From: Strigamia acuminata
Lineage: Eukaryota; Arthropoda; Chilopoda; Geophilomorpha; Linotaeniidae
Direction of reading: 5' to 3'
Length of the DNA stretch: 64,000 nucleotides
NCBI GenBank assembly: GCA_949358305.1
Contig: OX442315.1
Span: 5,605,875 to 5,669,874, forward strand
Shown here one piece after another: positions 5,220 to 61,846 of the stretch. Each line of letters begins with the position of its first letter. The stretch's first letter is position 1. A model generated the notes under the pieces. That model saw only the letters and a program-made list of their open reading frames with translations, ran no database searches and was not told where the DNA came from. A program made the translations under genes and the position numbers.

Positions 5220-5262
5220 GTATAAATAAGTAATGACTTCAAAGCCACTATTCACTGTTTTA
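5220..5262 (+). promoter_or_regulatory. Candidate TATA promoter of the signal-peptide MATH gene
   Basis: TATAAATA begins near 5220, and a TTCACTGT initiator-like motif lies about 30 bp downstream. This is arthropod core-promoter spacing, about 40-60 bp before the ATG at 5304. Inferred from motif spacing only. Confidence 0.5.
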
Positions 5263-5303
5263 AGGAACAGCTTTCAATCTGTATCGACTTATTCGTTGTA
5301 GAA

Positions 5304-16018: not shown

Positions 16019-16841
16019 TGTGGTGACCCAGTTGGATAAGTGTCCCCCCAGGGCGGATACTTGCCCTCTGAGTCACTATGATGGAAGAGTCGTTCCCCCC
16101 TGAGTTGGCTCCACCTCCCCATGGCAGGTGTGTCCCCCGAGGGGGAGGAAGCGGCTGGTGGTCAGCCCCCATTGGTTGATCGCCGGCCCTTCACCCCACT
16201 GCATAAAAGGCGGTGTTTCCCGCCAACAAGACAGAACTTACACAAACGACACCAAGAACACAGCAACTACCTCACCGTCAGGCCAACTTCAACTACAAGT
16301 TAGGATTGATCGAGGATCGCTGAGTAAAGTGCAAACTGTAACTCTCACGAAGTCACTTGCGAGCTATTCCTGCGAAAGCACGAGAATAGCCCTTGTGAAA
16401 TCACCCAGAATAATCGCCCAGTCGATTATTCGCCGAAGTAAGTGTCCGAGTGCTTTGTAGGGAACCCCAAAGTTCCTAGACGAGGCCTCTGCGACGCTAA
16501 ACCAAACCCTAGACAACAGGCACGGATAGAAGACTCGAAAGAGCATTCCACCGCGTCCGTGAAGACGAATCCGTGACGAATTAACGACAACTCGAGACGC
16601 CGCCTTTGTTCCGCCGACCACGCGGAACCGACGACGCCATCTTGAGAAATCCTTTGTTCGACGCTGACCACGTCGACTCTAGAATTATTACTGAGTGTAT
16701 TTTAAGGCCTTCAAGCCTACTGAATAAATTACTTGTTCATTTAAATACATTTGGTATTCATTTGGGTATTTGCATAATTGATCACAGGTAAAGTATTACA
16801 CGTTAGCGCTATTTAAACCTATCACCAGGTAGGACGCGACA
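16019..16841 (+). mobile_element. Solo LTR of the Gypsy-2 family
   Basis: An 823-bp copy of the Gypsy-2 LTR (start TGTGGTGACCCAGTTGG, end GACGCGACA) with no internal region. It is flanked by CACC (or CACCT) at 16015-16018 and 16842-16845. It carries CCATTGGTTGAT, a TATA-like CATAAAAGG near 16202 and an AATAAA near 16722. It probably formed by recombination between two LTRs. It ends 272 bp before the TRAF B start codon, in the same orientation. Confidence 0.93.
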
Positions 16842-17113
16842 CACCTTTTGCCAGTTTGAGCATTTAAGAATCAATGTAAGACGCTATGTTGTGCAGGTCT
16901 CTATCTCGGCATTGACTCGACTCGTGTCGACCGAAATACACGCGTTATTTGTTGTTCTCTGAAGTAACTTTACTACAAGGTACTCAATGTATCGAGCGTG
17001 CAGTCATAGAACTGCGCCAATTGCACCATCATGTGGCTCGCCCTAACGGCAGATATCTGAACGAAGCTTCGATAGTCATGTGTTGTCACGCTTGGAGTTT
17101 GTGTTCAGTTGTC

Positions 17114-38100: not shown

Positions 38101-41100
38101 ATGAATTCCGTGGCTGAAAGGGCCAACCGTACAATTATTAGCGGGGTGAGGGCTTTGATGCTCGAGAACAGTTTCCCCTATCCCCTTTGGGCTGAATTGG
38201 CGACTTCCATCGTCTACTTAAAGAATAGGTTTCCCCACCAGGGGATTGAAGGCAAAACACCTTACTCGATATTTTTCAATAAGAAATTGTCTTTACGACA
38301 CATTAAATGCATTGGATCGAAGACTTTTGTTCATGTTCCATCCCAGACCCGCAAAGGCAAATTGGAGGGTAGAGCATGGGCAGGAGCATTGGTTGGCTAT
38401 GCCATCTCCACTAGGGGCTATAGGATCTGGGACCCTAAAACAAATCAAGTTTTTGCGTCAAAACACGTGCGGATCTTCGAGGACTCGTATTGGTACGAGA
38501 TTGGGAAGAGATTACAGACTCCAGTTCGACAACCTCAAGGGGGATCCGAAGAATTTAAGAGTTTTGGCTACTCTTCCTCCGACACCGAGGAAGATGACGA
38601 TGGTTCCGTTGTCCCTGTTGGACAGCCACCACCCTTTATGCCACCTCCTATCCCACCGCCCATTCCGCCCCCTATTCCACCTAGAACCCCAGGACCCGCT
38701 TTGAGACCAAATGTGCAGCGGACAATTGAGTTGCCTGCAATTGGAGTTGATCCTATTGGGGATGATGAGGAAATTGGTGGGGCGCAGGGTATTGATGGAG
38801 ATAATCCAGTTGAAGAAATTGGTGGGGCGAAGGGGGATGATGAAAATTTCTTAAACGTTTATCCTGACGACGATGAGGATCCAGATCTGGCACCCCCTCC
38901 TGGGGTACAAACTCGTCGTGGTTCGGGTAAAAAGGGAAAGGTGAAAGAGAAAGAAACCCCAGACCCAATGTTATTGCCGCTGGATATGACGAAATGGAGG
39001 AGAATCCAGTCTGTCCGGAAAGCCGGGGCAACGGCTGGAAAAGTTGACGTTGTTTATTTCTCGCCCAATGACGACAAACTTAGAAGTCGAACTGATGTTG
39101 CACGGTGGTGCGATGGAGAAGGTTACGCATACGATCCGAACCTTTTCGACTTCAAAACGTTAGAAGGGGAGGAACCCTTACCTTTTGCGGGGTTTTGTGC
39201 AGTTGAGCCCGACACCTACGAGGAGGCGATCGAGGGCATTAACAAACCCTACTGGGAAGGGGCGATGAAGGACGAGATTGACATTTTTGATGAACGAGAA
39301 GTCTATCGTGAAATTGACAAGCCTAAAGACGTACAGCTTTTGGGGACAAAATGGATATATAAGATGAAACGCGATCACACCGGAGCAATTCAACGCTACC
39401 GGGCCCGATTGGTGGCCCAAGGGTTTAAACAGAGGCCCGGAATTGACTTTACGGAGGTATTTTCCCCCGTTGTCAATTTCGTCCTCGTTATCGTGTTCTT
39501 CTGCACTCTGGTAGTGCTTAAGGGCTGGCGTGACGTGCACATCGATATTAAGGCCGCCTACCTCTATGGCGACCTCGATACAGTGCAATATTGTGAAGTC
39601 CCCAAGGGTTACAGGACAGCGAAAAACCGACATAAGTGTTGGATGCTGCTGAAGGCCTTATATGGCCTTCATCAGAGCGGACGAATGTGGTACCAAGCGC
39701 TCCACGATTGTCTGCTCCAATTGGGATTTGAGCCAATGCTAGGACTGAACTGTGTCTATTCTCTGGACAACGAAGCAGTAATCATTTTCTACGTCGACGA
39801 TATCGTACTCTTTTCAAGAGACGATTACGTCGAAAAATGCGTCCTGAAATGGATTCGCGGTTTCTTCGACATTGTTGATTTGGGTCCGGTGACCCTATTG
39901 TTGGGCATCGAATTCGACAGATCCGGGGGGCGAATCCGTATTCACCAGAGAAAGTACATAGAAAAGCTGTGTAAGATGTATGGAGTGGATCCGTGTCACC
40001 GTGTGCGAGTGCCAGTGACCCCTGGCACAATGATCCAGCAAGTTAAAGAGGGTGAACGGGTGAACACGGTATTTCCGTACAGGAACTTGGTCGGGAGTCT
40101 CCTTTTTATTGCGAGCAGGACTAGGCCTGATATCCTCTTTTCGGTTATAGTCCTCTCGCAATACAATGAAAAACATTCGGCGCGTCATGTTGGAATGCTG
40201 ATGCAGGTATTGCGATATTTAGGGAACACACCAAACTATGCCATCGATTTATCGAATTGTAGGAATGATTCCCTTACTGTCTACACTGACGCGTCTTTCG
40301 CCCTAGACCAAGACAAGAGAAGAAGCTTTGGGGGCCATATAGTGTACCTAGGGGGGGTTCCAATCTCATGGAACTGCCATAAGCAGACAATGACCTCCCT
40401 GTCGATCATGGAGAGTGAATTTCTGGCCGTGGTCGATGGGGTGAAGGATATTATATGGCTTCACCGACTGTACGACGCAGACATTATGTTTTGTGTCGAA
40501 CGCGCAACCCCGTGCGTATATGCCGACAGTATGCCGGCGATTCAGTATACGAAAAATAGAATAGAAAACCGCGCTAATAAACATATAGATGTCAAACTGC
40601 ATTTCGTCCGTGACTGGTTCGAAAAAGGAACGTTTTCTATTAGACACATCGCCGGGGTTCTGAACGTGGCAGATATTTTAACCAAATGGTTAGCGAAACC
40701 AAGGTTAAACACTCTTTGCGAACACATTTTTGTTATGGACAAATAGTTTAAGCAAAGGGGGATTTGTTGGGTTGCAAACCCATTTTGTAGTGCTTAAATA
40801 TTTGTTCCTGTGTTACGTGATTTATTGGTTACACAATTTCCGAGTATGTGTAACAAGTGTGTTGTAAATTAATGTCCCGATCCAGTGTTCAACCGATAAT
40901 GATTTTTATCAATGCTTGTTATGTACCGCGGTTGAATATTCTCTCCTTTACAGCACACGTCCCTGATGTCGTCTGCTTGAAAAAGCGATTTGTGTTTTAT
41001 CCTTTTTCCTTGGTTTATCGATTATTAATGTCGGTGTTTTTACTTGCGATTGTAAAGGACAAATCATTGGAAACTTGACAATGATTTATCCTATGTTGTT

Positions 41101-44100
41101 TGAGAGGGCAAATAGCCTCTAACCGTGTATCACCTGATATTCTCACGAATAAAAGATGGCGCACGCATGTCGGTTTCGCGCACCGTTTCAACTGATGTTT
41201 CTTTTGATTTCGTTTGCAGAATTGCCGGGAATAACCTCACATAAACAACCTTCAAACAACCTTCAAACGACCTTCCAATGATCAATCTACGATCTTCCAA
41301 CAATCTTCCAACGACCTTCTAACAACCTTCCAACGACTTTAAAAAGACCTTCAAACAACCTTCCAATGATCAATCAACGACCGTCCAATAATCTTCCAAC
41401 GACCTTTAAACAACCTTCAAATGACCTTCTAACAACCTTCAAACGACCTTCTAACAACCTTCAAACGACTTTCCAACAACCTTCAAACAACCTTCAAACG
41501 ACCTTCCAATGATCAATCAACAATCTGCCAACATCTTCCAACGACCTTCCAACGACCTTCAAACAACCTTCAAATGACCTTTTAATGATCAATCAACGAT
41601 CTTCCAATGATCTTCCAACGACTTTTAAACAACTTTCCAACGACCTTTAAACAACCTTCAAACGACCTTCTAACAACCTTCAAACGATCTTCTAACAACT
41701 TTCAAACGACCTTCAAACGACCTTCCAATGATCAATTAACAATCTGCCAACCATCTTCCAACGACCTTCCAACAACCTTCAAACAACCTTCAAAAAACCT
41801 TCTAACGACCTTCAAACAACCTTCAAACGACCTTCAAACAACCTTCAAACGACCTTCCAATGATCAATCAACGATCTTCCAACGATCTTCCAACGACCTT
41901 TAAACAACCTTCAAACAACCTTTAAACGCCCTTCAAATGACCTTCAAATGACCTTTAAACAACCTTCAAACGACCTTCAAACGATCTTCCCAATGATCAA
42001 TCAACGACCTTCCAACGATCTTCCAATGACTTTTAAACAACATTTAAACGATCTTTAAACAACCTTCAAACGACCTTCAAACGACCTTCCAATGATCAAT
42101 CAACGACGGGGTTTCATAAATCATAAATCATGTAATTTTAATTAATGATAAATGAACTCGCTCAATGATCAACTTGCTTGAGATATTCCAGTTTGAAGCT
42201 GGGCCATCCCAGTTGTGCCGTATTGAAACGGCTACCGCTCGAAAACTAATAAAGCTGCAGTGTTGTGCTTCTCAGGGTTTGTAGAGGAGAAAGTCCTCTT
42301 TTATTTGGTATTTCAAAAAAAAGAAATCCGTTGTCAGGTTTTCGAGATATTCCAGTTTGAAGTTGTGGCACCACATTCGGAAATTTATGACAAGTCTTTT
42401 TTGCGCCATATTGAAAGGGTCGACGCTTGATAACCAAGAGGGGTAGAGAGTTGTGCTTTTCAAGGATTGTTAAGGAGAAAGTCCTCTATCTTTTGGTATA
42501 AAAATCATTGAAATCCGTGGTAAAAAAAATTGGTATTTGTTCTATCTGTAGTTTGGGCGAATGTGAATGTGGTGCCAACTTCAGCCTGGTAAAAAATACT
42601 GCAATTTGTGGGACTGGTACAGTACCTGTAACACGTTTTTGGTACCAAACGACTTTACTTTAGCAAAATCTCAAAAAATGTAGCAAAATTTTGCAAAATC
42701 AAGCACAATCTTACAAAATCTCATAAAATCAAGCACAATCTTACAAAATCTCATAAAATCAAGCACAATCTTACAAAATCTCACAAAAACAAGCACAATC
42801 TCACAAAATCTTACAAAATCAAGCAAAATCCATAAAAGTACCATTGAAGAGATTCAAAAAGTACCACAAAATTTATGAATGACTAGTGCAATTCGGACAA
42901 TAATTGATTAAAATCGCAAATATCTTGAGAACAAAAGCTCGGATCTTCAAAACTGTAGTTTTTAGGTGTCGAAGGTTGGGACAATGATAAGACGCGTGGT
43001 TAGGTTTAACAGCAATGACTAACTTTATTCTAATTGCTAACACATTATATACAGGTGCGCTCAACCCTGATTGGTTTACGCCAAGTACGTCATCTGGACG
43101 TCGTGGGTGTGCAGGTGAAACGTTCACCTGGCGTGAAGACTGGGCACTCAAAACCAACATTTCCCCTGAGTGTCAGTCACCACATATTCCAACATTTTTA
43201 CATCTCAAAAGTTAAAATAATTAAAAACACTTTTCAATTCAATTCAATTCAATTCAAATATTAAACATATTTTTCTCAAACAATTCAAATATTTTGTTTT
43301 ACTAATTAATACTCTTCATATCGAATTCTTCCTGGTGGTTTTCCATTTCGATTTGAATACGGTTTTCGAGTTCTCGAAGATTGTCGCGGAGGCGGCCGTA
43401 CGTTTTTGATCTGGGGAGTTTCGACTTCCCCTTGTTCCGTCTCGTTCTCGACTTCGTCATTGATCTCGACTTCGACTTCATTCTCGTTCTCAGAAATTTC
43501 AACTTCGTCCTCGTTTTCTGAAATTTCAACTTTGTTCTCATTTTCGGAAAGTTCCACACTCGATTCTTTGCTTGACTGCAAAAACATACATCGCGCCATT
43601 TCCATTAATGTTCGACTTATCTGTTCTGTAACGTCGTTTTTCAGTTTCTTCAAAATTGATTCGTACTCGAGCTTCTCGTGCCATTCGCGAATTTCTACGT
43701 TCTTGGGTCTTGTCTTGTCGACTTCCGTGCACACTTTCTTGTTCTCGGTTCTCGTCTTCTTGACTCCCGTACATGCTTTCTTGTTCTCGGTTTTTGCTTT
43801 CTCGACTTCCATGCTTGCCTTTTCGGTCTTCACGTTCCCGGTTCTCGTCTTCTCGACTTCCGTACTCGTGTTCTCCGCCGTAAAAACAACTTTTCTATTT
43901 GGTTTTATAACTTCTGCGGCCTTTTTCTTAAAAATAACTTTATCGCCTCGGTCGGTAATACTTCTGACGGACATTAAATTCGTTCGTAAGTCACGTACCA
44001 GCAACGTTTCTTCCAGTTTCGAATGTAAAACGTCACTTTCGGGACCGATTTCGATCTTCACAGTTCCTTTTCCGTTGATTTTCGTGCTCGCATTACTGGC

Positions 44101-48128: not shown

Positions 48129-48152
48129 CCTTACACCATTAACTAAAGTGGT

Positions 48153-48972
48153 TGTGGTGACCCAGTTGGATAAGTGTCCCCCCAGGGCGGATACTTGTCC
48201 TATGAGTCACTATGACTAAAGAGTCGTTCCCCCCCGAGTTGGCTCCACCTCCCCATGGCAGGTGTGTGCCCCGAGGGGGAGGAAGCGGCTGGTGGTCAGC
48301 CCCCATTGGTTGATCGCCGGCCCTTCACCCCACTGCATAAAAGGCTGTGTTTCCCGCCTAAAGTCAGAACTTACACAAACGACACCAAGAACACAGCAAC
48401 TACCTCACCGTCAGGCCAACTTCAACTACAAGTTAGGATTGATCGAGGATCGCTGAGTAAAGTGCAAACTGTAACTCTCACGAAGTCACTTGCGAGCTAT
48501 TCCTGCGAAAGCACGAGAATAGCCCTTGTGAAATCACCCAGAATAATCGCCCAGACGATTATTCGCCGAAGTAAGTGTCCGAGTGCTTTGTAGGGAACCC
48601 CAAAGTTCCTAGACGAGGCCTCTGCGACGCTAAACAAACCCTAGACAACAGGCACGGATAGAAGACTCGAAAGAGCATTCCACCGCGTCCGTGAAGACGA
48701 ATCCGTGACGAATTGACGACAACTCGAGACGCCGCCTTTGTTCCGCCGACCACGCGGAATCGACGACGCCATCTTGAGAAATCCTTTGTTCGACGCTGAC
48801 CACGTCGACTCTAGAATTATTACTGAGTGTATTTTAAAGGCATAAAGCCTAGTGAATAAATTACCTGTTTATTTACATACATTTGGTATTCATTTGGGTA
48901 TTTACATAATTGATCACAGGTAAAGTATTACACGTTAGCGCTATTTAAACCTATACCAAGTAGGACGCGACA
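48153..48972 (+). repeat. Gypsy-2 5' LTR
   Basis: 820 bp, start TGTGGTGACCCAG, end GACGCGACA. It has CCCATTGGTTGAT, GCATAAAAGG and AATAAATTACC motifs. Confidence 0.95.
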
Positions 48973-48974
48973 CG

Positions 48975-48992
48975 TGGGGGCCTGGCCGGGAT
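48975..48992 (+). promoter_or_regulatory. Gypsy-2 primer binding site, tRNA-Pro-like
   Basis: TGGGGGCCTGGCCGGGAT, 2 bases after the LTR; it differs from the Gypsy-1 site at one base. Confidence 0.75.
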
Positions 48993-49066: not shown

Positions 49067-52000
49067 ATGTCAGACAAAGACGAGCAATCCACGTCTGACA
49101 CCGAGCAGAGAATGCCCGAGAAGGGAAAAAGGACCTCCGACTACCACCTGAGATCGGATGGTCCCGTCCCCGAAATGTCCGCAAAGGCGAAAGCCCGAGC
49201 GAATAAAAGGAGAGCGAAGGCGCAGAAAGAGGAGCAAGCTGCATCGCTCGCGGCCCTAGACGGGCCAGAGCGAGAGCGGGTTCCCTTGAATATGCAACCC
49301 TTCGAAGATACCGATCCGGAAGCCATAGAAAATCGAGAAGAAATTCGCGACGTATCGCCGGGACGGGTATCGATATTAATGACCGAGGAGACGAATGAAG
49401 CTCCGAGAGAAACGGTCACGGTCGGCACAAACCCATCACCACCAACGGCTCAGACGTCCGTAGAGCAAACCCCACGGAAAAACGACGGCGGGACCCCGAT
49501 AACCCCCCGAGTTACGGCGAGTCCTGCAGTTGTTTCCTTCGAAGTATCTCACCTAATTCGGTTGACGCAGCAAGCTGCCCAGCTAAAAGCGATGATAGAC
49601 ATTCCAGTAGGAACGTCAGTCTGGGAATCGATTACCCTACTCACTGACGCTATCTGTGCGGCACAAGCCCCGACGCCGGTCGCAAGACCAGCAGCGGAGA
49701 CGCCCATGCCCCAGGTAACGCCCAGTGACACCGGAGGTTTCGCGCCAGACCCCAACCGAACACTTCACGAATCCAGAGAGAAGGCCCGCGAGGAAGCCAG
49801 ACAAGAAGCGACTAGTCGCCAACGAAGGCTGAGCGCAGAGCGGCGAGAACTCTGGAAGGAAGAGGAAGAAAGGGAGCAACGCGAGAGAAGAACCACCGAG
49901 AGAACAGAGAAACTGGTCCAAAAAATGAGGGAAGAACGAGAAGCTAAAATTCGAAAAGAATGGAACGCAACAGTAGAAGGGCGACATCGAGAAGCTCAAG
50001 AGTACGAGGACCAATTTCAAGCGCTAATAGCTCAAAGAAAAACAGAAAAACTACAAATGTTGCGAAAAGAGGCCATTCTACAACATCAGAAATGGGAAGA
50101 ACAACATCGCGAGAGGTTGAGAGAAGAGGAAGCCAGAAAAGAAAAAGAACAGTTTCTGAAAGAGAAAGAAGAGTGGGATCGAGTCAGATGGACCGAAGAG
50201 TACAAAGCGAAGAAACAAGCTATAATAGATGAGCAAAAAAGATGGGAAGCCGAAAACTGGGAGAAGGAGACAGAAAAGTTCCAGAAAGAGTACGCACAAG
50301 ACGTCTCGGACAGGAAGAAAAATGAAGAAAACCTGAAACGGAAACCAGAACCCCCCAGCGGCTCTGATACCGACACAGGAGAAGGTGCAACAAAGCCGGC
50401 AAAAACGGCGAAAAGGGGGAAATCTCAAAAGAGAGACGAGTCGGTCCCAAAAACAAAGGACCGTCACCCCTCAAAAAGATCCGAGACGGGAGCAGCCATC
50501 GACGCGTTACTCGAAAAGAAAAACGCAAATAAAAATCGGGAACGCCCCGAAAGCGAGGAAAACAGATGGCATTCTTTTTACGAGAACAACGACGGAGGGG
50601 AGCCGCCGCCATCCGGAGGCTCGAAACAGAAGAAGGCTGGCGGAGAGACCCCACCGAGAGGGCCGAGGTTTCACCCCCAAGGAGATCCCTCCGAGCCCTC
50701 CGATTCGTCGGACGACGACCATCCGAGTCGACCGTCTACAGGGAGGAGTCAAGAAGACAGCGATGGGCACCGGTCGAACCGGCCGAATGCTTCAGACCGC
50801 TCCTCCCGGAGCTCCAACCCTCGTTCGGAGGAGGGGAACTTTCAGGACTCATCTGGCCGACATTACACGATGTCTGAGCTAGGCCGAGCCCTGCTGAACT
50901 CTTTCAGAAGAGAAGGAATCGATCTAGGCCATCCAGGCGACGAACATAATCGCGCTGGAGAGAGGGTTAAGCGTAAATATGGCGTACGAAACGAACCAAG
51001 CAGCGAAGCCACGGGTAACATCCGTTGGCAACACTACATACAAACACGATTCGACGGTTCGTGGAAGGCCGGAGACCGCTTCCTAGACGAAGTAATGCGT
51101 ATCAAGAAAGCGACAAAAGCCACCGTCGCCGACATGCTAACCCACGGTCTAGTGGAGCTAACCACGGGGTCAGCTCGAGAATGGTATCAGGGACTGAAAA
51201 ACCCAACCTGGGACGATTTTCTCGTCCGTTTCGATCTCCGATACGGCGAGACTCCAGACGAGATCAGTAACAAATTACGTGGTCTACGGCAAGCCCCAGG
51301 AGAAACATTAGCCGACTACGACGCCCGAGCGAAACTCCTGTTTGCAAGAGCGCCGTACGAAATAAACCCCGCTGGTTTTACGATGATCTTTTACGGAGGA
51401 TTATCGGCCCACTCGCAAAGAATTCTACTAGACATGCGTGCACCCCGCACTGGCGATTACCAAGATGTCAGTAACTATCTTCTAACAAACACGTTAGAAA
51501 TAGAACAGCGGTATTACGCCACTCTGCCCCCGGAGGAAGCTGACGCGCACGAGAAACGGTTGCAGACGAGCGCCGAACGTCACAAGACCTCAGAGAAATT
51601 AATGAGGCCAAGTGAATATTTGAGCGGCATAATGAGTCTCACCGAAGCATCCTTCGGACGAATGCTGACGCCTAAAGCAGGCAGTATTCTTCCAGCCAAC
51701 CCGATAGCTGCCCCAAAGAAAGCACCGGCAGCAACGGCGATGCAGGTGACCTCGACGGACTCCACCCAGATGGAGAAAGTCGAAGAGACAACACCTCCCG
51801 CCACGGCTAAAGAAGAGGAGCCAGCATCAAGCGACGATCAAGGTCCCTATTTGCACCATGCACACCGGGCCTTAGCAATCGCACAATTCAGAGCACACGT
51901 GCAGGCAACAAAAGCGAGAGGGGCATTGGGAGGAAAAAGACGATTCCCGACGCCCTTCGTCCCGAAAAAACCGGGATTCACTCCCACAGGGGATAAAAGT

Positions 52001-52159
52001 AACATCAAATGTTACAGCTGCGGAGAATACGGTCACTACTCCGACAAATGCGAAAAAACCGTCAAAGAAAAAGGCATCATGCAAACCTTGATGAAAATGA
52101 TGATGGAGTTAAATACTAATCTAGCAAAAAACTCCCAAGCGCAGGCGTCGCCGAAATAA
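49067..52159 (+). CDS. gag: Gypsy-2 Gag
   Basis: 1030 aa from MSDKDEQST. The N-terminal half holds a long Glu/Lys/Arg-rich coiled coil (about residues 230-440) that Gypsy-1 lacks at this length. The gag domain is close to Gypsy-1 (GSWKAGDRFLDEVMRI, SAREWYQGLKNPTWDDFL). One CCHC knuckle lies near residue 983 (CYSCGEYGHYSDKC). It ends just after the frameshift signal. Confidence 0.92.
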   Translation: MSDKDEQSTSDTEQRMPEKGKRTSDYHLRSDGPVPEMSAKAKARANKRRAKAQKEEQAASLAALDGPERERVPLNMQPFEDTDPEAIENREEIRDVSPGRVSILMTEETNEAPRETVTVGTNPSPPTAQTSVEQTPRKNDGGTPITPRVTASPAVVSFEVSHLIRLTQQAAQLKAMIDIPVGTSVWESITLLTDAICAAQAPTPVARPAAETPMPQVTPSDTGGFAPDPNRTLHESREKAREEARQEATSRQRRLSAERRELWKEEEEREQRERRTTERTEKLVQKMREEREAKIRKEWNATVEGRHREAQEYEDQFQALIAQRKTEKLQMLRKEAILQHQKWEEQHRERLREEEARKEKEQFLKEKEEWDRVRWTEEYKAKKQAIIDEQKRWEAENWEKETEKFQKEYAQDVSDRKKNEENLKRKPEPPSGSDTDTGEGATKPAKTAKRGKSQKRDESVPKTKDRHPSKRSETGAAIDALLEKKNANKNRERPESEENRWHSFYENNDGGEPPPSGGSKQKKAGGETPPRGPRFHPQGDPSEPSDSSDDDHPSRPSTGRSQEDSDGHRSNRPNASDRSSRSSNPRSEEGNFQDSSGRHYTMSELGRALLNSFRREGIDLGHPGDEHNRAGERVKRKYGVRNEPSSEATGNIRWQHYIQTRFDGSWKAGDRFLDEVMRIKKATKATVADMLTHGLVELTTGSAREWYQGLKNPTWDDFLVRFDLRYGETPDEISNKLRGLRQAPGETLADYDARAKLLFARAPYEINPAGFTMIFYGGLSAHSQRILLDMRAPRTGDYQDVSNYLLTNTLEIEQRYYATLPPEEADAHEKRLQTSAERHKTSEKLMRPSEYLSGIMSLTEASFGRMLTPKAGSILPANPIAAPKKAPAATAMQVTSTDSTQMEKVEETTPPATAKEEEPASSDDQGPYLHHAHRALAIAQFRAHVQATKARGALGGKRRFPTPFVPKKPGFTPTGDKSNIKCYSCGEYGHYSDKCEKTVKEKGIMQTLMKMMMELNTNLAKNSQAQASPK

Positions 52160-52177
52160 ATTCAGCTTCGTCTGCGC
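52126..52177 (+). promoter_or_regulatory. Gypsy-2 gag-pol -1 ribosomal frameshift signal
   Basis: A AAA AAC at 52126-52132 in the gag frame, 6-nt spacer, then a 9-bp stem pairing 52139-52147 (GCGCAGGCG) with 52169-52177 (CGTCTGCGC). The pol frame is -1 and opens at 52120. Heptamer, spacer and stem match Gypsy-1. Confidence 0.88.
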
Positions 52178-52230
52178 CAGCCGCGGAAATTAAAAAGAAG
52201 AAATATCACACTGGACCCGCAGGTCATGCC

Positions 52231-55200
52231 TTGGCAGAAGCACAGATCAAAGATCGCATGCAGACCATTCCGAAGAAGGAAGAAACAGTGACGCTGACAA
52301 GTATGCAAGTGAGAACGAAGCCGGAGGTCGACATAGATTGGACGGACCTCCCGTTCAATCTGGAGGTTGAGCCCCAAACATTACGCGTTTTTCACTGCAA
52401 TGTCACGAAAACACATTGCGAAACTCTGTGTATGCTGCCAGTGGAGATCGAAAACCAAAAATTGTTCGGTCTGCTGGATTCAGGAGCAGATCGTTCATTC
52501 ATATCCGAAGATATAGTAAAGGACTTGGATATTGAAAAAAAGGTGGCACAAGTGAACGCGAACGTAGAATTGCTCACCGCCAACGGCTACGTCAAGCCGA
52601 GGGGCGTAGTTCGCATCATGATCGACTGGAAGGGGGGGAACCTGTCCCACCCCTTCATAGTCTTGCCATCCCACGACAAAGTATTCCTCTTAGGGATGGA
52701 TATCATGGCAAAACTGAAAATTCAGCCAAACCCGATAACCCGTTCATGGAACTGGATAAGTCCCGAGGGAGAACGGCCAGTCCCCGTAGTTCCCCAAAAA
52801 TTACTGGACGAAGCCAAGGACAAAGAGGAATACGGAAGAGGATTGCGAAAATTCGTCCAAGATTACGATTTCGCAGCCTTCACTCTGGAATTACAGAGGA
52901 GTAACGTCGTGGACACCCTGGTCGAGGAGGCAGCACTGCGTGTTAACGAGGCATCGCTACTAAGGCGAGTGCTTCGAAAGCATGAAAGAATTCTGACCAA
53001 GACACCTGGTCGAACGACGGAAGCAACACACGAAATAGTCTTAACCACAGACAAGCCGATTCGAGTGCCTTACAAGGGGATGAACCCCCAGAAAAGAGAC
53101 ATCGTGACGCAAATGTGCCAAGACATGCTCGACAAGGGCATAGTAACGCAAGCCCTGGGCGAATACGCCATGCGGATCGTCCTGGTGATGCGTCCAGGCT
53201 CGGAACCTCGACTATGCATTGATTATCGCCCCCTGAACGCGATAACGGTTATAGACCCGATTCAGATGCCGTCTATAGACTCGATCCTCCGGGAACTGAG
53301 CCCGTTCAAGTGGGTAACCACCATGGACCTGTCAAAGGGGTATTGGCAAGTGGAGCTAAAACCCGAAGACAAACTGAAAACGGCTTTCTACTCCCCGATA
53401 GGAAGACTAATGTTCAACGTGATGCCGTTCGGGCTTGTAAACGCCCCGAGCACGTTCCAGAAACTGATCGAAAGCGTGTTGGGAGATATGCTGCACGACT
53501 TCGTGTGGGCGTATCTCGACGACATCATAATAACGTCGGACACATTCGAAGAACATATAGACCACATCGATAGAGTGGTCTCTCGCCTAGCCAAGGCAGG
53601 ACTCCACATCCATCCAGGGAAGAGCAAGTTTTGCAGGAAAGAGCTTGCCTTCCTAGGATATCGAATAGGAGTCGAGGGAATCGCGATTGACCCCGAAAAA
53701 GTCAAAGCAATAAACGGATTCCCCGCCCCCGAAGATATAAAAGGTGTCCAAAGATTCATGGGCATGGTCAATTTCTTCGGCCGACTACTCTCTGGTCTGG
53801 CTGAGGTGGCCGCGCCTATAACGGATCTCTTACGAACGGATAAAGAGTTTGAGTGGACGGTCCAGTGCGAGGCCGCATTTAGCACTATCAAGCAAATGCT
53901 GGCTGACGTCGAAAAGATGCCATTGCCGGACCTAAACCGACCGTTCGTGTTGCACACCGACGCGAGTAAAATCGGACTGGGTGCAGCCCTTCTGCAGACC
54001 CACGTGTACAACGGAATCTCGCAAGAAGTACCCTGTATGTTTATAAGCAGGAAAATACAGGGCGCGGAGAAAAATTATACGGCAACGGAACTAGAATGCC
54101 TAGCCGTAATTTGGGCAGTTCGGAAATTTCGCGACTATCTGGAGTACACGAACTTCGAGGTTCAGACAGATCACCAGGCACTAAGCTGGTTGATGAAGCT
54201 CAAGGAACCTTCCGGCCGACTCGCAAGATGGCAACTGGAGTTAATGGCGTGCGATATTACAATTACGTACCGCCCCGGGAAGTACAATCATGTGGCCGAC
54301 GCCCTCTCGAGAGCCCCAGCCTCTGACCCCCAAGGACCAGACGACGACGGCGAGGACGACACCCACCTCTTGTACTGCCCGACTCCACGGAGAATATGGC
54401 GTTTGCGAAAGGCGAACGAGCTACCAGTGATGGAGCCTGAAGATAGAACGTTTTGTGGTTTTTGGACTCGAACATACCAGCCAGCTGGTACAAACAATTC
54501 AACATCCGAAATTCAATCTCCGCCCCCCGGAGAAACCCACAAAACACTACTACGCGCCTTCACAGCAAAAATTGAAGAAAAAACACAATACGCTCCACCC
54601 ACGAGACGTGAGTTCGTCGAACACCAGGCAGCAGACACAAAATGTCAAATTATAACGCAATATTTGCTGAACGGCGAATTTCCGGAAGGGATGACAAACC
54701 CACACCGCCGGAAACAGTTCGTCAAAGAAGCAACAAGCTACCTCATAGATGATGAACTCCTGGTAAAATACCACCCGACGTTTCAAGATGACCTCAGCGG
54801 AGCGGGAAACTCGGTTAAAGTGGTCGTGCCGGCATCGCTGCACACCCGACTGTTGTGGCTGATGCACGGACACCCGCTCGCCAGCCATTCTGGCGTGGCG
54901 AGGACCCTTTATCGAGTAAAACAACTTTTCTTCTGGCCGGGCGCGCGGCAAAAGATAACGAAATTTATCCGACACTGCCCCCGGTGCCAAGCGTGCAGAC
55001 CGCGAGATAAAGTGGCCAGAAACGCCATGTCTCTCGGACCCTACGCACCGTTTGACTGCTTAAGCATAGACTTGATGGGCCCCAAGCCCACAACGGGAAA
55101 CAAGAACATGTATATTCTCGTAATTATGGACGTGGCCACCCGATGGCCGGAGCTGTACGCCCTCGCGAAGCCCTCGGCTGAAAACATAGTCGAGTGCCTT

Positions 55201-56262
55201 TACGACGTGGCAATGCGATTTGGGTTTCCCAGAAAACTCATTTCGGATAACGGCCCCCAATTCCGATCAAGAATATATAAAGACTTCTGTAGGAAATTTA
55301 AAATGGATGCATCGAACACCTCCACATATAATCCTCAGACAAACCCAGTCGAGAGATTAAATAAAGATATAAAATATGCGCTGACAGTATTCACCGACAT
55401 TCACAATCGATGGGACGAATACCTGCGAGAAATCGCTTTCAGCATTCGCTCAACCGTGTCACGAACACGCGAATTCTCACCGGCGTACCTCAACTTCGCC
55501 CGCGAATTAAGGATGCCATGGGACCCACGCGTTGCCGAAGCTGTTAACGTATTAGACCCGTCGAGCCCACATGAGTACGTGTGCCGGTTGGAACAGACTA
55601 TATCCGACACGTACCAGCATATGATGGCGCATATTTTCAACATGAGAGAGAGAATCGCAGATAAAGAAGGCGATCTCGCTTTCGCGAACTTTAAAGTGAA
55701 TGATCTAGTGTGGAAGGAGGCACACACGTTGTCCAATGCAGCGAGGGGCATCGCCGCCGGTTTAGCCGACAAGAGGGACGGTCCCTACGAAATTGTGGCC
55801 GAACACGGAGGCAACGCATACCAACTACGCCGCCTAGAGGACAACAAAAATTTTCAGTCGATACATGGCCGAGATTTAAGGCCATATCTGCCAGAATTTC
55901 CACAGGAAATTTGGCTGGAAGGTCAGACACACAGCGGCCAAGGGGGCACCGTGGTCGACACGTTCCAAAAAACAAATGAAGCTGAAAATATAGCGGAGGA
56001 CGAGGATGAATTCTTCGACGCCGAATCTCCGGCCGACGAGGCTCCAGCACAGCCGGAGCAAGCAATTTCGGAGAGGGAGGAAGCAGAAGAGAGTACTTCT
56101 GAAATGGAAAATAAAAAAATTAGTAATGAGAAAAATGCCAACACATCGGAGATGAACGAGCAAGTAGAGTCACGATCTACGAGCACGTCGAAAATCAACC
56201 TTCGACCACGACGAAGCAATAATCCGTTCATTCGGGACGGCAAAGTCGTGGGGAAGAACTAA
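52231..56262 (+). CDS. pol: Gypsy-2 Pol (protease, RT, RNase H, integrase)
   Basis: 1343 aa counted from an in-frame TTG at 52231; no ATG is near, which fits frameshift expression from gag (frame open from 52120). Protease DSGADRSF near residue 83, RT YLDD at 428-431, RNase H HTDASKIGLGAALL, integrase HHCC finger (HGHPLASHSG...CPRCQAC) and D,D,E (IDLMGPKP, SDNGPQF, VERLNKD), then GPY/F (KRDGPYEI). It is very similar to Gypsy-1 Pol through RT and integrase and diverges in the acidic C-terminal tail. Confidence 0.95.
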   Translation: MAEAQIKDRMQTIPKKEETVTLTSMQVRTKPEVDIDWTDLPFNLEVEPQTLRVFHCNVTKTHCETLCMLPVEIENQKLFGLLDSGADRSFISEDIVKDLDIEKKVAQVNANVELLTANGYVKPRGVVRIMIDWKGGNLSHPFIVLPSHDKVFLLGMDIMAKLKIQPNPITRSWNWISPEGERPVPVVPQKLLDEAKDKEEYGRGLRKFVQDYDFAAFTLELQRSNVVDTLVEEAALRVNEASLLRRVLRKHERILTKTPGRTTEATHEIVLTTDKPIRVPYKGMNPQKRDIVTQMCQDMLDKGIVTQALGEYAMRIVLVMRPGSEPRLCIDYRPLNAITVIDPIQMPSIDSILRELSPFKWVTTMDLSKGYWQVELKPEDKLKTAFYSPIGRLMFNVMPFGLVNAPSTFQKLIESVLGDMLHDFVWAYLDDIIITSDTFEEHIDHIDRVVSRLAKAGLHIHPGKSKFCRKELAFLGYRIGVEGIAIDPEKVKAINGFPAPEDIKGVQRFMGMVNFFGRLLSGLAEVAAPITDLLRTDKEFEWTVQCEAAFSTIKQMLADVEKMPLPDLNRPFVLHTDASKIGLGAALLQTHVYNGISQEVPCMFISRKIQGAEKNYTATELECLAVIWAVRKFRDYLEYTNFEVQTDHQALSWLMKLKEPSGRLARWQLELMACDITITYRPGKYNHVADALSRAPASDPQGPDDDGEDDTHLLYCPTPRRIWRLRKANELPVMEPEDRTFCGFWTRTYQPAGTNNSTSEIQSPPPGETHKTLLRAFTAKIEEKTQYAPPTRREFVEHQAADTKCQIITQYLLNGEFPEGMTNPHRRKQFVKEATSYLIDDELLVKYHPTFQDDLSGAGNSVKVVVPASLHTRLLWLMHGHPLASHSGVARTLYRVKQLFFWPGARQKITKFIRHCPRCQACRPRDKVARNAMSLGPYAPFDCLSIDLMGPKPTTGNKNMYILVIMDVATRWPELYALAKPSAENIVECLYDVAMRFGFPRKLISDNGPQFRSRIYKDFCRKFKMDASNTSTYNPQTNPVERLNKDIKYALTVFTDIHNRWDEYLREIAFSIRSTVSRTREFSPAYLNFARELRMPWDPRVAEAVNVLDPSSPHEYVCRLEQTISDTYQHMMAHIFNMRERIADKEGDLAFANFKVNDLVWKEAHTLSNAARGIAAGLADKRDGPYEIVAEHGGNAYQLRRLEDNKNFQSIHGRDLRPYLPEFPQEIWLEGQTHSGQGGTVVDTFQKTNEAENIAEDEDEFFDAESPADEAPAQPEQAISEREEAEESTSEMENKKISNEKNANTSEMNEQVESRSTSTSKINLRPRRSNNPFIRDGKVVGKN

Positions 56263-56639
56263 AAATAAAAGAAAATGTGATAACATGGAGCGGAGGCCTT
56301 GTAAAATAAAAAGATTTACTTACGAGAGCTGCTGCACATGTTGAGACGCGAAAATTTGGCTAAGTCCAAACTTCGCAACGAATTGTCGCAGTCACCACTA
56401 ACAGACGAGAAGTTATGACGTATCGGGCGACCACGTGACAATGAAACCACGCGGTCGACCCCGTAGCGTCATTGCCAGCACGGCGGATCTCGCAAAATAC
56501 GAGACGCGTTCGAGACCCACAATTCTCAGCGTCGATAGGCCCAGTTTCCGACTGTTTTTAACACGACGAGACGTGTTTTTTGCTTCTCCCCAAAGAGAAA
56601 ACAAAGACCTCTCAAAAAACTTCATTTTCCTAAATTGAA

Positions 56640-59600
56640 ATGGCCGATCGACGCAACCCACGATTAGAGCCGAGCGCATCGTCGAGAGACGAGAGCGACG
56701 GCCTAATCGTAAATGCAGAAGAAGATGAGAATTGGGACGAACAACCGCCGCTGCAGGTAAATTAGTGTGATTTCCCCAGAGAAATCACATAATTCTTTGA
56801 ATCTGTTGCATCCAACCCAGATTGGAGCGTGACTTGTGACTGATATATTTCTTTCTGTTTTATTGTTGATTTAAGGCTGGCTAAAAACCCGAGAGTGGAC
56901 CCAGATTCACCTCGGAGTCAAGGCCGCCAAAAAACTAGAACAAAGGAAGTGTTCGCGGAATGGCGTCGTGGCAAACCAAAACCAAAACTAAAGGTTTTCT
57001 TTCTTTTAAATTTAAACATCGTAATAAATTAAAATACGATTAGAGTTAAAATAAAAAAGTTTAACGTAAGAAATTAAAATTTAACGATCGGTTTTGCCTG
57101 CGACCCCTTCCAAAAAAGCGGATCACCTGAGTTCAAAAGTAGTGTTGGATCAGCGCTACGACGGCGGAGATCATCGCAGAACTGCGAAACAAGAAAATAA
57201 GACCGACGGCCGCAACAAAAGAAAGGAGTTGCTGCCACCGTCGATCTTGAGCATATTTCTGATCCCCATCGTTAAACTGGGATTTATTATATTAATCTTG
57301 TGATCTAAAATTATTCAGGTCGACCCGCTAGAATCGTGGGACGCCCTGCCTTCGACGGTGTCAACCGCCAACAACATCTTTCGCGGAGCCCTGCCGATTT
57401 ACCTGCGGCAGGCCTATCCTGCAGAGACCAGCGCCTGGAAAATCCGATTGATGTATTCCAGGACCCTCGAGGAAAAATTCGAGCGATCAAAAACGCTGGT
57501 CAAGTGCATGACAAAGGAGATGAGGGAGCGAGTGGGGCCGCGGATCCCACCCGATGCGGATCCGCCGAGCCCCGTTTACTCCGGGTACCTGGAAGAGGCT
57601 TACCCAGGCACGGTGGCCGAGCTGCACACCTCCCATAGGTGGAGCGAGGCCCCGACCTTGGCAGCCCGCCAGAGAATAGTGGACGACGAGATCAAACGCT
57701 TAAAGCGCACCGAGACTCAAGGAGTAACCCGAGTTCTCGAGAGAAACGGTTTCTCCCCCGAAGAAATCCGTAGATGGCTTCGCGACATCGAAGAAGATCA
57801 TTTGACACCCAGATGGATACCACCGGCGAATTTTACGGCCACGCAGTCTGAGATGTGGCAGTTATACCACGCTGGTATCCTGGGAAGTCGCCGCCATCAC
57901 AGAAGATCGAAGCGTCCGGCGGAGTCCGCCCCACGCGGACCCGCACGAAGAAGACAGGCCGTCTCCCCAACAGAGGCCGGCCCGTCAACGAGTCGCGACT
58001 ACCGCAGCCGCTCGAGCAGCTCCAGTTCCCGAACTCGAGTTGTCGTGCGCTCGGAGTGTCGCCGAGTAGTAACGCTCGAGCCTGCCTCGCCAGACGACGC
58101 GCGGGCTGAGCGAACGGTCGAATCTTCCGCCCACTGGGCTGCGAGGACCGAGACACACCAAGATCGAGGAAAGAAAAGATCCTCGTTGTTTATGGCGATT
58201 ACCACACAGTCGTCAGATCAATCCTCGTCGCGACGAACCGTCTCATCACACCAGAGACCGAATTCTCCGACGGACGTCCCCCAGAGGACGGCCCAACGAA
58301 GATCCGTCGCAGCCAGCACCCGGAGGAATCGAAAGCGCAAAGTACGTCAGAAGTTGCGAGCACAATCCCTGATAGCTAAGGGATTAGAGAAGGAGCGAGA
58401 GATGGCCGCCGCGAAACGGTCCGAACCCCAGAGTCTCGGACCCACGGCTGGACCGTCCAGGCGCCAAGCAGAGATTGATTTGGGAGAGTTGACGGAAGAG
58501 CAAATGTCCCCAGATGAGTCGGACAAAGATGGGCCGGTTACAAAACAGGATCTGGCCGTAGCATTGAAGAACGCCTTCCGAGGATACGCGGCCAACCGGC
58601 CGTCGGGCTCAACACCGGCTGTGCCCACCGCGCTTGTGCCCCCACAAGTGCAATCGCGATGGCCGCCACTCCTCGAGGGTATAAACCCAGCCGTGACCGC
58701 TTGGACCCCTCCCCGGATGATTCCGGTGGGGGATCCAGCTCCGAAGCGGGTCAGATACGATAATCTACCCGGGCTGGGCCGTCCACCGTCACCCCCAACG
58801 CCACGAGTGTGTCGACCTTATCGCAACGCCGAATGGTACGCCCAGCGAGAGATGGACGCTCGATGCCGGCGTGAAGCGGCCTATCCCCCACTCGGCGAGC
58901 TACAAGAATATCTGGCCGAATACGAGAACCCCGCGATTGCCGAGTTGGCCATACGACAGGCCGACGCCGCCCAAACTCACCACATCAATTGGGCGATCGA
59001 ACAGATGCGGACGCTGTCACAACAATTCAGTGACAATCCGGACCGCGCTCACCCCTGCCATCGGAGCAGTTTGAATTTGGCTGTGACGAACGTACTGGCC
59101 CAGCTGCTATCCCTGGGCGTCTTCTTGGACAGTCGGCAAGCTATGGCGGCCTGGACAATCGTCGACCGTGAGGGAGTTCACCTTCCTCGGGCGTTGTACC
59201 AGGTATGGGCCGGATGGACTCCTGAGCCCGCCTCGCTGCGCTTCGACCTGGCCAGAAATACGGAAAACCCAGGCCTACAGTTTTCAAAGATGCGTTCGTT
59301 GGCATTCCGCTACCGGAACCCCGGTGTCCATCCTTCCTTGTTACGAACGATTCGGGAGGTTCCGGAGATACCGGGAACGGCGGCGAGCCTTCCACAGGCC
59401 ATCGAGACCGCCCCCCCAGAGGCGGCGGTCCAACCATACATACCGACCCCAAAGCCGGTATTCCCGAAGGAGAAGCGACACGCGAATCGACCCATATTGA
59501 TTCCGAAGCGTTCCAAGCGAGGACCCCGAACTCCTCCGCTGCCCTCTCCTTCACCACCAGCGGCAGGGCTGGCCGCTCTCTCTGCAGAGCCGGCTACGCC

Positions 59601-60105
59601 ACCGTTGGAGAGCCCAATGGAGATTCCGCTCCCACCATCGCCTCCGCCGCCCCCAGCAGCGCAGCTTTATTTGAGGCTGGGAGTGGAATACCCCTTCCTT
59701 CAGATGTCGGAGTTCACGCGACAACGCATCGTTGACTCCGATGATCACGGCGAATCGATCCTCAAATGGCTAAACAGAGAAGCCCGATCCACCATGGACG
59801 TCGTCTTCCATCGCCGTATCCTACGGGCCCACAGGAAACCCGGGTCGAGCGCCGAGTCACGAAGGATCCGGCTCGTTCCAGACCGATTCCCGGCCTCTAC
59901 CCGGATTTGGATCCATGAGCGTACGGGACTGATCGGCGAACCCGTCGGTGGTCACCCACAATATTTCATCAATGAGCGGCAGAATCCTGCGGATCTAACA
60001 ACCTCTCTGCCCCCAGATTTACCACCGCCGCCACCGGCAGTGCCACCCGTGATCCTCCGCCCATGCAGAGGAGTGCTGCCGGCTCTTCGCAGAGGAGAGC
60101 GATGA
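56640..60105 (+). CDS. Gypsy-2 ORF3, spliced third gene of unknown function
   Basis: Exon 1 (56640-56756, 39 aa, acidic, contains EEDENWDEQ) ends CTGCAG|GTAAAT. Exon 2 (57319-60105) follows TTATTCAG and has no ATG at its start, so splicing supplies the start codon. Both junctions are phase 0, giving about 967 aa. Shared with Gypsy-1 ORF3: the ENWD motif in exon 1, IFRGALP, SEMWQL, GILG, AMAAW, DREGV, FHRRILRAHR and HERT, in the same order. The middle is Arg/Ser-rich, then Pro-rich. No signal peptide or membrane helix in the spliced product. Position is that of env, but content is not. Function unknown. Confidence 0.8.
56757..57318 (+). other. Putative intron of Gypsy-2 ORF3
   Basis: 562 bp, GTAAAT...TTATTCAG. 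An open stretch at about 56888-56998 (basic, KPKPKLK) has an AG before it and might be an optional exon, but its phase does not fit a simple in-frame join. Confidence 0.65.
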
Positions 60106-60152: not shown

Positions 60153-60972
60153 TGTGGTGACCCAGTTGGATAAGTGTCCCCCCAGGGCGGATACTTGTCC
60201 TATGAGTCACTATGACTAAAGAGTCGTTCCCCCCCGAGTTGGCTCCACCTCCCCATGGCAGGTGTGTGCCCCGAGGGGGAGGAAGCGGCTGGTGGTCAGC
60301 CCCCATTGGTTGATCGCCGGCCCTTCACCCCACTGCATAAAAGGCTGTGTTTCCCGCCTAAAGTCAGAACTTACACAAACGACACCAAGAACACAGCAAC
60401 TACCTCACCGTCAGGCCAACTTCAACTACAAGTTAGGATTGATCGAGGATCGCTGAGTAAAGTGCAAACTGTAACTCTCACGAAGTCACTTGCGAGCTAT
60501 TCCTGCGAAAGCACGAGAATAGCCCTTGTGAAATCACCCAGAATAATCGCCCAGACGATTATTCGCCGAAGTAAGTGTCCGAGTGCTTTGTAGGGAACCC
60601 CAAAGTTCCTAGACGAGGCCTCTGCGACGCTAAACAAACCCTAGACAACAGGCACGGATAGAAGACTCGAAAGAGCATTCCACCGCGTCCGTGAAGACGA
60701 ATCCGTGACGAATTGACGACAACTCGAGACGCCGCCTTTGTTCCGCCGACCACGCGGAATCGACGACGCCATCTTGAGAAATCCTTTGTTCGACGCTGAC
60801 CACGTCGACTCTAGAATTATTACTGAGTGTATTTTAAAGGCATAAAGCCTAGTGAATAAATTACCTGTTTATTTACATACATTTGGTATTCATTTGGGTA
60901 TTTACATAATTGATCACAGGTAAAGTATTACACGTTAGCGCTATTTAAACCTATACCAAGTAGGACGCGACA
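60153..60972 (+). repeat. Gypsy-2 3' LTR
   Basis: 820 bp, apparently identical to the 5' LTR; followed by TGGTT. Confidence 0.95.
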
Positions 60973-61770
60973 TGGTTCATTACAAAAATATTTTGATCTG
61001 CCATACTTTTTTTCTTTTACCTATATTGTAAAAAATGTAGAAAACCGTGCACATATAAAATCCGAAATATGTTTACAATGAAAGACAATTATGATTGGCT
61101 CACCGATCGCACTCGAGTACGTCTGGACGATGAACTTAATGAGCAGACTGCAGATGGACGATCGTTTTCATTTCCCCAAAGGTTATTCAGGGTACTGATT
61201 CAGATTTCGAATTGAAATGTTGAACAAATTAAAATATTCCGTAAATTTGACATACAGTATGATCAGCTGCGATTTCAACATTTTAGTAAGTTTGATTCAT
61301 CGCTACGGAGCCAAAGTGAAAACTTGAAACGGAATCCTTTAATAATGTTGAAATTGTGAGAGTGGACGGGCGCCATTCGAGCAAGGGAATGCCTAAACAG
61401 CGTCGGACACACGACACGTTGAATAGAAGTGACACAAGAGACTGTATTTAATGGTTTTATGGACTTTATTCAGTCTAGGGGTCAGTTTCTCATGTCTCTC
61501 CTATGCTACTGCTGCATTACTGCAGCAGACCTGAGACCACATGCGGCACAACATGTGGTTAGGGCCCGTTTGTGCAGCGTGGTCAGACAGCTGTTCATTT
61601 GGCCCATGGATGCAGGTCGGATCACTTCATCGAATCCCGTTTCATCAAATTCTATTTTTTTATCATTTTTTGAAATGTTGGAAAACGGGGTTGTTTCATC
61701 GAATTTAAATTCCGCTTGGTAAGCTTCATTGAATTTTCGGCCATCATCGGGGATGTTATTTACGTGGCTA

Positions 61771-61846
61771 CATGGTTAGGTTAGGTTGTGTTAGGTCTGG
61801 TTAGGTTAGGTCAGGTTAGGTTAGGTTAGGTCAGGTCAGGTTAGGA
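61771..61846. repeat. Degenerate TTAGG-like repeat
   Basis: About 15 GGTTA/GGTCA units. TTAGG is the arthropod telomere motif, but this is short, degenerate and interstitial. Confidence 0.75.

Follow-up and report, generated by a model that had tools for sequence, protein, structure and literature searches.

A 64,000-nucleotide stretch of the genome of Strigamia acuminata (assembly GCA_949358305.1, contig OX442315.1, positions 5,605,875 to 5,669,874 of the forward strand), referred to here as the window, contains two Ty3/Gypsy retrotransposons with long terminal repeats (LTRs), Gypsy-1 and Gypsy-2, and behind the pol gene of both lies a third gene, ORF3, divided between a short and a long exon. 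Genomic evidence gives good support to ORF3 as a genuine third gene, expressed by splicing, in a group of Ty3/Gypsy elements with at least three families in this genome. In Gypsy-2, exon 1 (56640-56756; MADRRNPRLEPSASSRDESDGLIVNAEEDENWDEQPPLQ) has 39 codons, is acidic and encodes DENWD; it is followed by a 562-nt GT-AG intron in phase 0 (56757-57318, GTAAAT...TTCAG; donor CAG/GTAAAT, acceptor ATTATTCAG/GTC) and by an exon 2 of 928 codons (57319-60105). Gypsy-1 has the same plan, with an exon 1 of 30 codons (27514-27603), an 848-nt GT-AG intron, also in phase 0 (27604-28451), and an exon 2 of 921 codons (28452-31217); all features of the two elements are given on the + strand. A preliminary description of the Gypsy-2 gene was confirmed in its coordinates, junction, phase, acidic ENWD exon and order of motifs. 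Exon 1 supplies the ORF3 start codon, and the phase 0 splice links it to exon 2, which is long and basic and has three conserved blocks. The same description held that exon 2 has no ATG near its start, which is true of Gypsy-2, where the first in-frame ATG is codon 45, but not of Gypsy-1 or the third family (see below), where exon 2 opens with ATG as codon 1. The open frames of exon 2, 921 and 928 codons, compare with maxima of 372 and 366 codons in 300 Markov shuffles each.

Regarding the relation between the two families, identity is 63% in pol and 53% in the capsid-nucleocapsid (CA-NC) part of gag. The LTR regions have only a 27-nt match (at the primer site) and a 16-nt match in common, and BLAST found no match between the intervals from pol to exon 2, introns included, in agreement with the claim that LTRs and introns differ between the families. 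When the two ORF3 proteins were aligned, three blocks of exon 2 survived SEG masking, so that the similarity extends beyond low-complexity sequence: D1 (57331-57885; IFRGALP ... SEMWQL; 33% identity over 185 columns, E 3e-30), D2 (58720-59313; RQAMAAW--VDREGV--PRAL; 41% over 198 columns, E 3e-36) and D3 (59668-60006; LRAHR ... WIHERT ... EPV-GH; 41% over 114 columns, E 7e-23). With masking off, the same program returned D1 alone. The exon 1 pair, similar in DENWD and acidic residues, scored 49, a value equalled or beaten by 42 of 20000 shuffles. The protein has proline-rich linkers and a net charge of +28 and +39 in the two families, which also have in common an RSK cluster behind D1.

Sitting between pol and the 3' LTR and expressed by splicing, ORF3 could be taken for an envelope gene of the errantivirus kind, expressed by a splice from a leader exon. 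A 19-residue stretch of D2 in Gypsy-2 has a mean hydropathy of 1.75, above the usual membrane-segment cut-off of 1.6, and Gypsy-2 has four furin-like matches, but in Gypsy-1 the same stretch reaches just 1.07, and it is part of a conserved block, not near the C terminus. Furin-like matches are absent from Gypsy-1, N-glycosylation motifs number three in Gypsy-1 and one in Gypsy-2, and no cysteine column is common to the two. The envelope reading is extremely improbable and was set aside on these sequence features, there being no conserved membrane segment, furin site or cysteine. The third ORFs of Drosophila melanogaster Metaviridae are env-F genes (PMC12992720), in which splicing links the main exon either to a short exon that lies ahead of gag or to an AU dinucleotide, or else starts from inside gag. 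ORF3 resembles the insect errantivirus env-F in being a third ORF expressed by splicing (PMC12992720), but its short exon is placed after pol and before the main exon, neither upstream of gag nor within it, and the membrane and furin features are not conserved.

Genome searches covered the assembly that holds the window (237.5 Mb). A third family (G000:C1:12755301-12759400), reached via an array of the hairpins described below that had no D2 motif match nearby, repeats the split-exon plan: exon 1 (MDEEGGDEEMLEIQHHDENWDPDINVVPPDQ) encodes DENWD, the donor is CAG/GTAGTA and the acceptor TTGCAG/ATG, the phase is 0, and no stop codon interrupts the 926 codons read from exon 2, a stretch that does not reach its end. 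The start of this exon 2 has 70% identity to Gypsy-1 (359 columns) and 31% to Gypsy-2 (229 columns). Between the third family and Gypsy-1, synonymous divergence (dS) is 1.69 and nonsynonymous divergence (dN) 0.21 in exon 2 (352 codons; dN/dS about 0.12); for exon 1 (29 codons) dS is 1.85 and dN 0.21 (dN/dS about 0.11). Residues invariant in all three families number 51 of 192 in D1, 64 of 181 in D2 and 44 of 119 in D3, with 42 of 296 and 15 of 112 in the linkers.

Within the genome, a search with Gypsy-2 exon 2 drew 2684 candidates, and the 49 places scored all have open frames of 933 codons or more at 98-100% identity. A degenerate DNA motif for D2 had 350 genome matches vs 0 for a reversed control; the IFRGALP pattern with other codons had 7 matches vs 5 in the control. 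Among the 31 Gypsy-2 copies compared, exon 2 is open in all 31 and has no indels, a figure that overstates intactness as 30 of the 31 loci were the best protein scores; exon 1 is intact and the donor GT present in 30, and the acceptor AG in all 31. Indel runs in the intron number 36 across these copies; only one is a multiple of three, and this one is part of a 119-nt deletion in copy L146 that covers the donor site together with the 3' end of exon 1. Gypsy-1 copies were picked by exact motif, and with the partial loci L155, L157 and L171 (3 of 17) excluded, all 14 copies have an open exon 1 and 9 have an open exon 2, and GT and AG are present in all; indel runs divisible by three account for all 4 found in exon 1, 2 of the 4 in exon 2 and 8 of the 47 in the intron.

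Nucleotide diversity (pi) in the exons was separated into synonymous (piS) and nonsynonymous (piN) sites. In Gypsy-2, piS is 0.043 and piN 0.0043 in exon 2 (piN/piS 0.10), and 0.024 and 0.005 in exon 1 (0.21); the ratios for Gypsy-1 are 0.25 in exon 2 and 0.18 in exon 1. Constraint is strongest in D2 and D3 of both families (0.07 and 0.06 in Gypsy-2, 0.14 and 0.10 in Gypsy-1). Both exons are therefore under purifying selection within both families while the intron gathers frame-breaking indels. These values bear on another role, that of a protein countering host defence such as small-RNA silencing, for which one might cite the accessory position of ORF3, its many young copies and its divergence, faster than that of pol (33-41% vs 63% identity). 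Selection within families is purifying, however, not diversifying, Pfam gave no match to a known family, and we consider a defence role quite unlikely.

Three observations on the copies stand apart from this. The Gypsy-2 intron (56757-57318) has a pi of 0.0053, below that of synonymous exon 2 sites (0.043), which may reflect constraint or recombination. In a 200-base stretch of D3 (59804-60003) the window copy is 12% off each of five Gypsy-2 copies, other stretches being 0-9% off, and this patch is likely a product of recombination. At locus L152 (G000:C1:45352000-45361900), positions 4112-6073 hold an open frame of 654 codons, closest among the 68 scored places to Gypsy-1 ORF3 copies (51-53% identity), with a gag-like start and, before it, LTR-like sequence with 69% identity to the Gypsy-1 LTR over 412 nt; the open frame had no gag or pol protein match, and the locus is a candidate relic, rearranged element or host-adopted ORF3.

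Regarding splicing itself, a 23-base probe for the spliced Gypsy-1 junction, with up to two mismatches allowed, had one match in the genome and none in the control. The match lies in a Gypsy-1 insertion (G000:C6:10309427-10322084) that has its two LTRs, a target duplication AGTT at either flank and 99.4% identity at the pol end, and in which the base equivalent to window position 27603 joins 28452 directly, so that the predicted 848-nt intron is missing to the base; of the 12,658 bases of this insertion about 3.8 kb were examined, and its length is that of the window Gypsy-1 minus the intron, within 13 bases. As CAG ends both exon 1 and the intron, the junction slides over three bases, one placement being the predicted GT-AG intron. 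The simplest reading of this insertion is reverse transcription and integration of an RNA from which splicing at the predicted sites had removed the intron, and the possibility raised beforehand, that the intron is never removed, is answered by this one genomic copy. A chance deletion between the three-base CAG repeats, with exon 1 as an unrelated small ORF, is conceivable as only a single intron-less copy is known, but the lost piece is exactly the GT-AG intron predicted beforehand, and exon 1 has a dN/dS of about 0.11 and phase 0 in three families; we regard this explanation as very improbable. Exon 1-intron boundaries had 264 genome matches for Gypsy-1 and 162 for Gypsy-2 vs one and zero for the spliced junctions, no intron-less Gypsy-2 copy being found in the genome search, which indicates that the transposing RNA normally keeps the intron. 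Thus, the conservation of this architecture across distinct Gypsy families, as put forward in the preliminary description, is borne out by protein similarity, the third family, purifying selection, the indel patterns and the intron-less copy.

The interval between pol and ORF3 has conserved elements of its own. A hairpin whose bulged A is set two base pairs beneath the loop (pattern CCCGUAGC-loop-GCACGG) is present there in all three families, in tandem in two of them: Gypsy-1 has three tandem copies (27187-27213, 27234-27259 and 27275-27300) and Gypsy-2 a single copy (56459-56485; CCCCGUAGC...GCACGG). The pattern, defined after the copies had been seen, has four matches in the window, namely the three Gypsy-1 units and the single Gypsy-2 copy, vs none in 100 shuffles, and 1081 matches genome-wide vs three for the reversed control. 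A covariance model built from the Gypsy-1 copies only had the Gypsy-2 copy as its best match outside the training set (E 0.019), and shuffled sequences fold less well than the three Gypsy-1 hairpins (z -3.0, -3.5 and -3.2). Among 100 hairpin matches listed, 64 are followed at 2-4.5 kb, on the same strand, by a D2 place among those listed, and nine have one elsewhere within 12 kb; conversely, 36 of 40 D2 places examined have a hairpin 2-4.5 kb upstream. Gypsy-1 copies carry two to four matching units each, and across the 14 copies pi is 0.007 in the hairpin stretch (27185-27364) vs 0.06-0.07 in the remaining interval. Rfam gave no match in the window. Further upstream, a conserved non-coding block (GAAAATTTnGCTAAGTCCAA; 56350-56369, and 27116-27135 in Gypsy-1) consists of a shared 11-mer and 8-mer in register; the 25 nt around it are identical in all 31 Gypsy-2 copies and variable among Gypsy-1 copies.

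Hairpins in genomic RNA would fit packaging too, and ORF3 may alternatively have a structural role or a place in the virion, as a further Gag-like or core protein encoded by spliced RNA, with the hairpins as a packaging signal read by Gag. Its long basic protein with proline-rich linkers, and the helices in low-confidence models, are compatible with such a role, but tblastn of both exon 2 proteins on the window returned the two exon 2 copies only and not gag, and neither Pfam nor a fold search (model pLDDT 52) gave a match. A structural role is unlikely, though not negligibly so.

For the expression of exon 1 there are candidate signals of a leader splice. A candidate donor, GAA/GTAAGT, lies in the Gypsy-2 LTR at 48571-48572, with GAA/GTAAGC at 19372 in Gypsy-1, both called on consensus score alone. 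A candidate acceptor lies downstream of the hairpins at 56528-56529 in Gypsy-2 (AATTCTCAG) and 27395-27396 in Gypsy-1 (TTTTCACAG), 110 and 117 bases upstream of the exon 1 ATG with no intervening ATG; all 31 Gypsy-2 copies and all 14 Gypsy-1 copies have it in identical form. The frame upstream of the exon 1 ATG closes two codons before it in Gypsy-2, with no AG within, and nine codons before it in Gypsy-1, with one AG (27491); a non-coding leader from gag is possible on this sequence. If the LTR donor is joined to the upstream acceptor, the hairpins would be lost together with gag-pol and kept in genomic RNA only.

The known system that ORF3 most invites comparison with is CERV, a spliced non-Env protein of the Caenorhabditis elegans Ty3/Gypsy element Cer1 that is needed for export of the genomic RNA (PMC10309623). 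Like CERV as described there, ORF3 is a non-Env ORF in env position with a spliced product, no obvious homology outside its own group and three domains (PMC10309623). According to the same source, CERV has 517 amino acids in five exons, the first of them in the gag frame, and a Cys-rich loop, and the Cer1 family primer site begins TGGGGGCC / TGGGGGCCG, here TGGGGGCCTG (PMC10309623). CERV was likened to ORF3 by description. Since the gag-frame exons and Cys loop of CERV have no counterpart here, ORF3 is a candidate functional analogue, not a member of that group. The retroviral export systems of the Rev/RRE kind follow the same proposed logic, a protein made from spliced RNA and a structure in unspliced RNA (in part PMC10309623), and no sequence match of ORF3 to such systems was found. 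Plant and rotifer LTR elements are also reported to have an extra ORF beyond gag-pol, likened here by description only (PMC7264820, PMC5408684).

By analogy with CERV and with Rev/Rem, then, we tentatively propose, at somewhat less than even confidence, that ORF3 is a protein made only from spliced RNA which lets unspliced genomic RNA exit the nucleus or be packaged. This proposal draws on the lack of a shared membrane segment or cysteine, the basic charge, the RSK cluster, the hairpins and the intron-containing copies. The LTR transcript would be spliced at the ORF3 intron, as the genomic copy shows for Gypsy-1, and the LTR donor is probably also spliced to the acceptor just upstream of exon 1. 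The protein may then re-enter the nucleus through the basic cluster behind D1 and recognise the bulged-A hairpins of the pol-ORF3 interval, thereby favouring intron-containing genomic RNA, as the hairpins would persist only in RNA left unspliced at the upstream acceptor. It is possible, if on the doubtful side, that ORF3 and the hairpin array together form an arthropod counterpart of Rev/RRE, in which the protein, of a new family without kinship to CERV or Rev, binds a modular RNA hairpin; copy number of the hairpin would then vary by unit duplication, and ORF3 would decide which RNA is spliced, exported and packaged.

Several observations weigh against the proposed export role. The intron-less insertion keeps the pol-ORF3 interval with its hairpins (one of the three units has an altered core), so that the ORF3 intron can be removed without the upstream splice, and a leader-spliced junction had no matches among genomic copies. 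The third family retains the AG of the acceptor, not its pyrimidine tract. The Gypsy-2 hairpin folds no better than shuffles (z -0.40), 27 of the 100 hairpin matches listed have no D2 match near (one of these was read, and had ORF3), and, as the stems hardly vary, covariation is no test and pairing rests on complementarity. ORF3 lacks the Cys loop and gag-frame exons of CERV, its exon 1 lying behind pol and no cysteine being shared, and D1-D3 are without a confident fold (AlphaFold pLDDT 35 for exon 2 and 52 for D2). The proposal is drawn from genomic DNA, with RNA binding and nuclear entry by ORF3 as its inferred parts.

Searches for relatives of ORF3 found none in a set of 5.8 billion proteins (7992 candidates scored per search) and none in IMG/VR viral contigs, GTDB prokaryote genomes, PDB or Pfam at the sensitivity of those tools, and no split ORF3 gene of this kind was found in the literature searched. 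A pol profile had 741 relatives, and among the 120 matches listed identity was 28-41%. One Pfam match, to Peptidase_M16_C (E 0.17, in one of the two ORF3 members), was taken as chance. The D2 model (pLDDT 52) had no fold match at E <= 0.001, and the models were not used. The claim that the gene family is undescribed agrees with this lack of matches and is thereby only partly tested. For a family with no relative in the collections searched, a role as RNA regulator is the best-supported guess. Non-Env third genes of Ty3/Gypsy elements with a worked-out function are rare, CERV being the sole case in the literature searched, and purifying selection, hundreds of copies, a genomic splice junction and a conserved RNA element make the nuclear exit of intron-containing retrotransposon RNA directly testable in an animal.

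Regarding the remaining structure of the two elements, both have the order gag, pol (in the -1 frame) and ORF3 region, and both show traits of Ty3/Gypsy elements, namely TG...CA LTRs, a short target site duplication, a primer binding site and the pol domain order (from Pfam for Gypsy-2). The Gypsy-2 LTRs (48153-48972 and 60153-60972) are 100% identical across 820 nt, with TGGT duplicated at 48149-48152 and 60973-60976; Gypsy-1 (18778-32270) has mutually identical LTRs (18778-19794 and 31254-32270) and the duplication CCTC. The primer binding site of Gypsy-2 is at 48975-48992 (TGGGGGCCTGGCCGGGAT), its Gypsy-1 counterpart being TGGGGGCCTGTCCGGGAT. Gypsy-2 gag is an open frame (49067-52159) with a CCHC knuckle (zf-CCHC, E 0.0021, below the curated cut-off), and pol (52120-56262) has Pfam matches to protease, reverse transcriptase, RNase H and integrase in that order. 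The sequence A AAA AAC occurs in both gag-pol overlaps (52126-52132 in Gypsy-2, there in the gag frame), and is a classical -1 frameshift site.

Elsewhere in the window, a lone LTR-like stretch (16019-16842) has 96.8% identity to the Gypsy-2 LTR. The region 34257-41064 has a frame of 1628 codons (35860-40746), copia-like by eye, flanked by identical 300-nt repeats at 34257 and 40765. A large array of an 11-nt repeat, with 77 copies, occupies 41243-42089, and a (GGTTA)n array at 61774-61845 corresponds to the TTAGG telomere unit of many arthropods.

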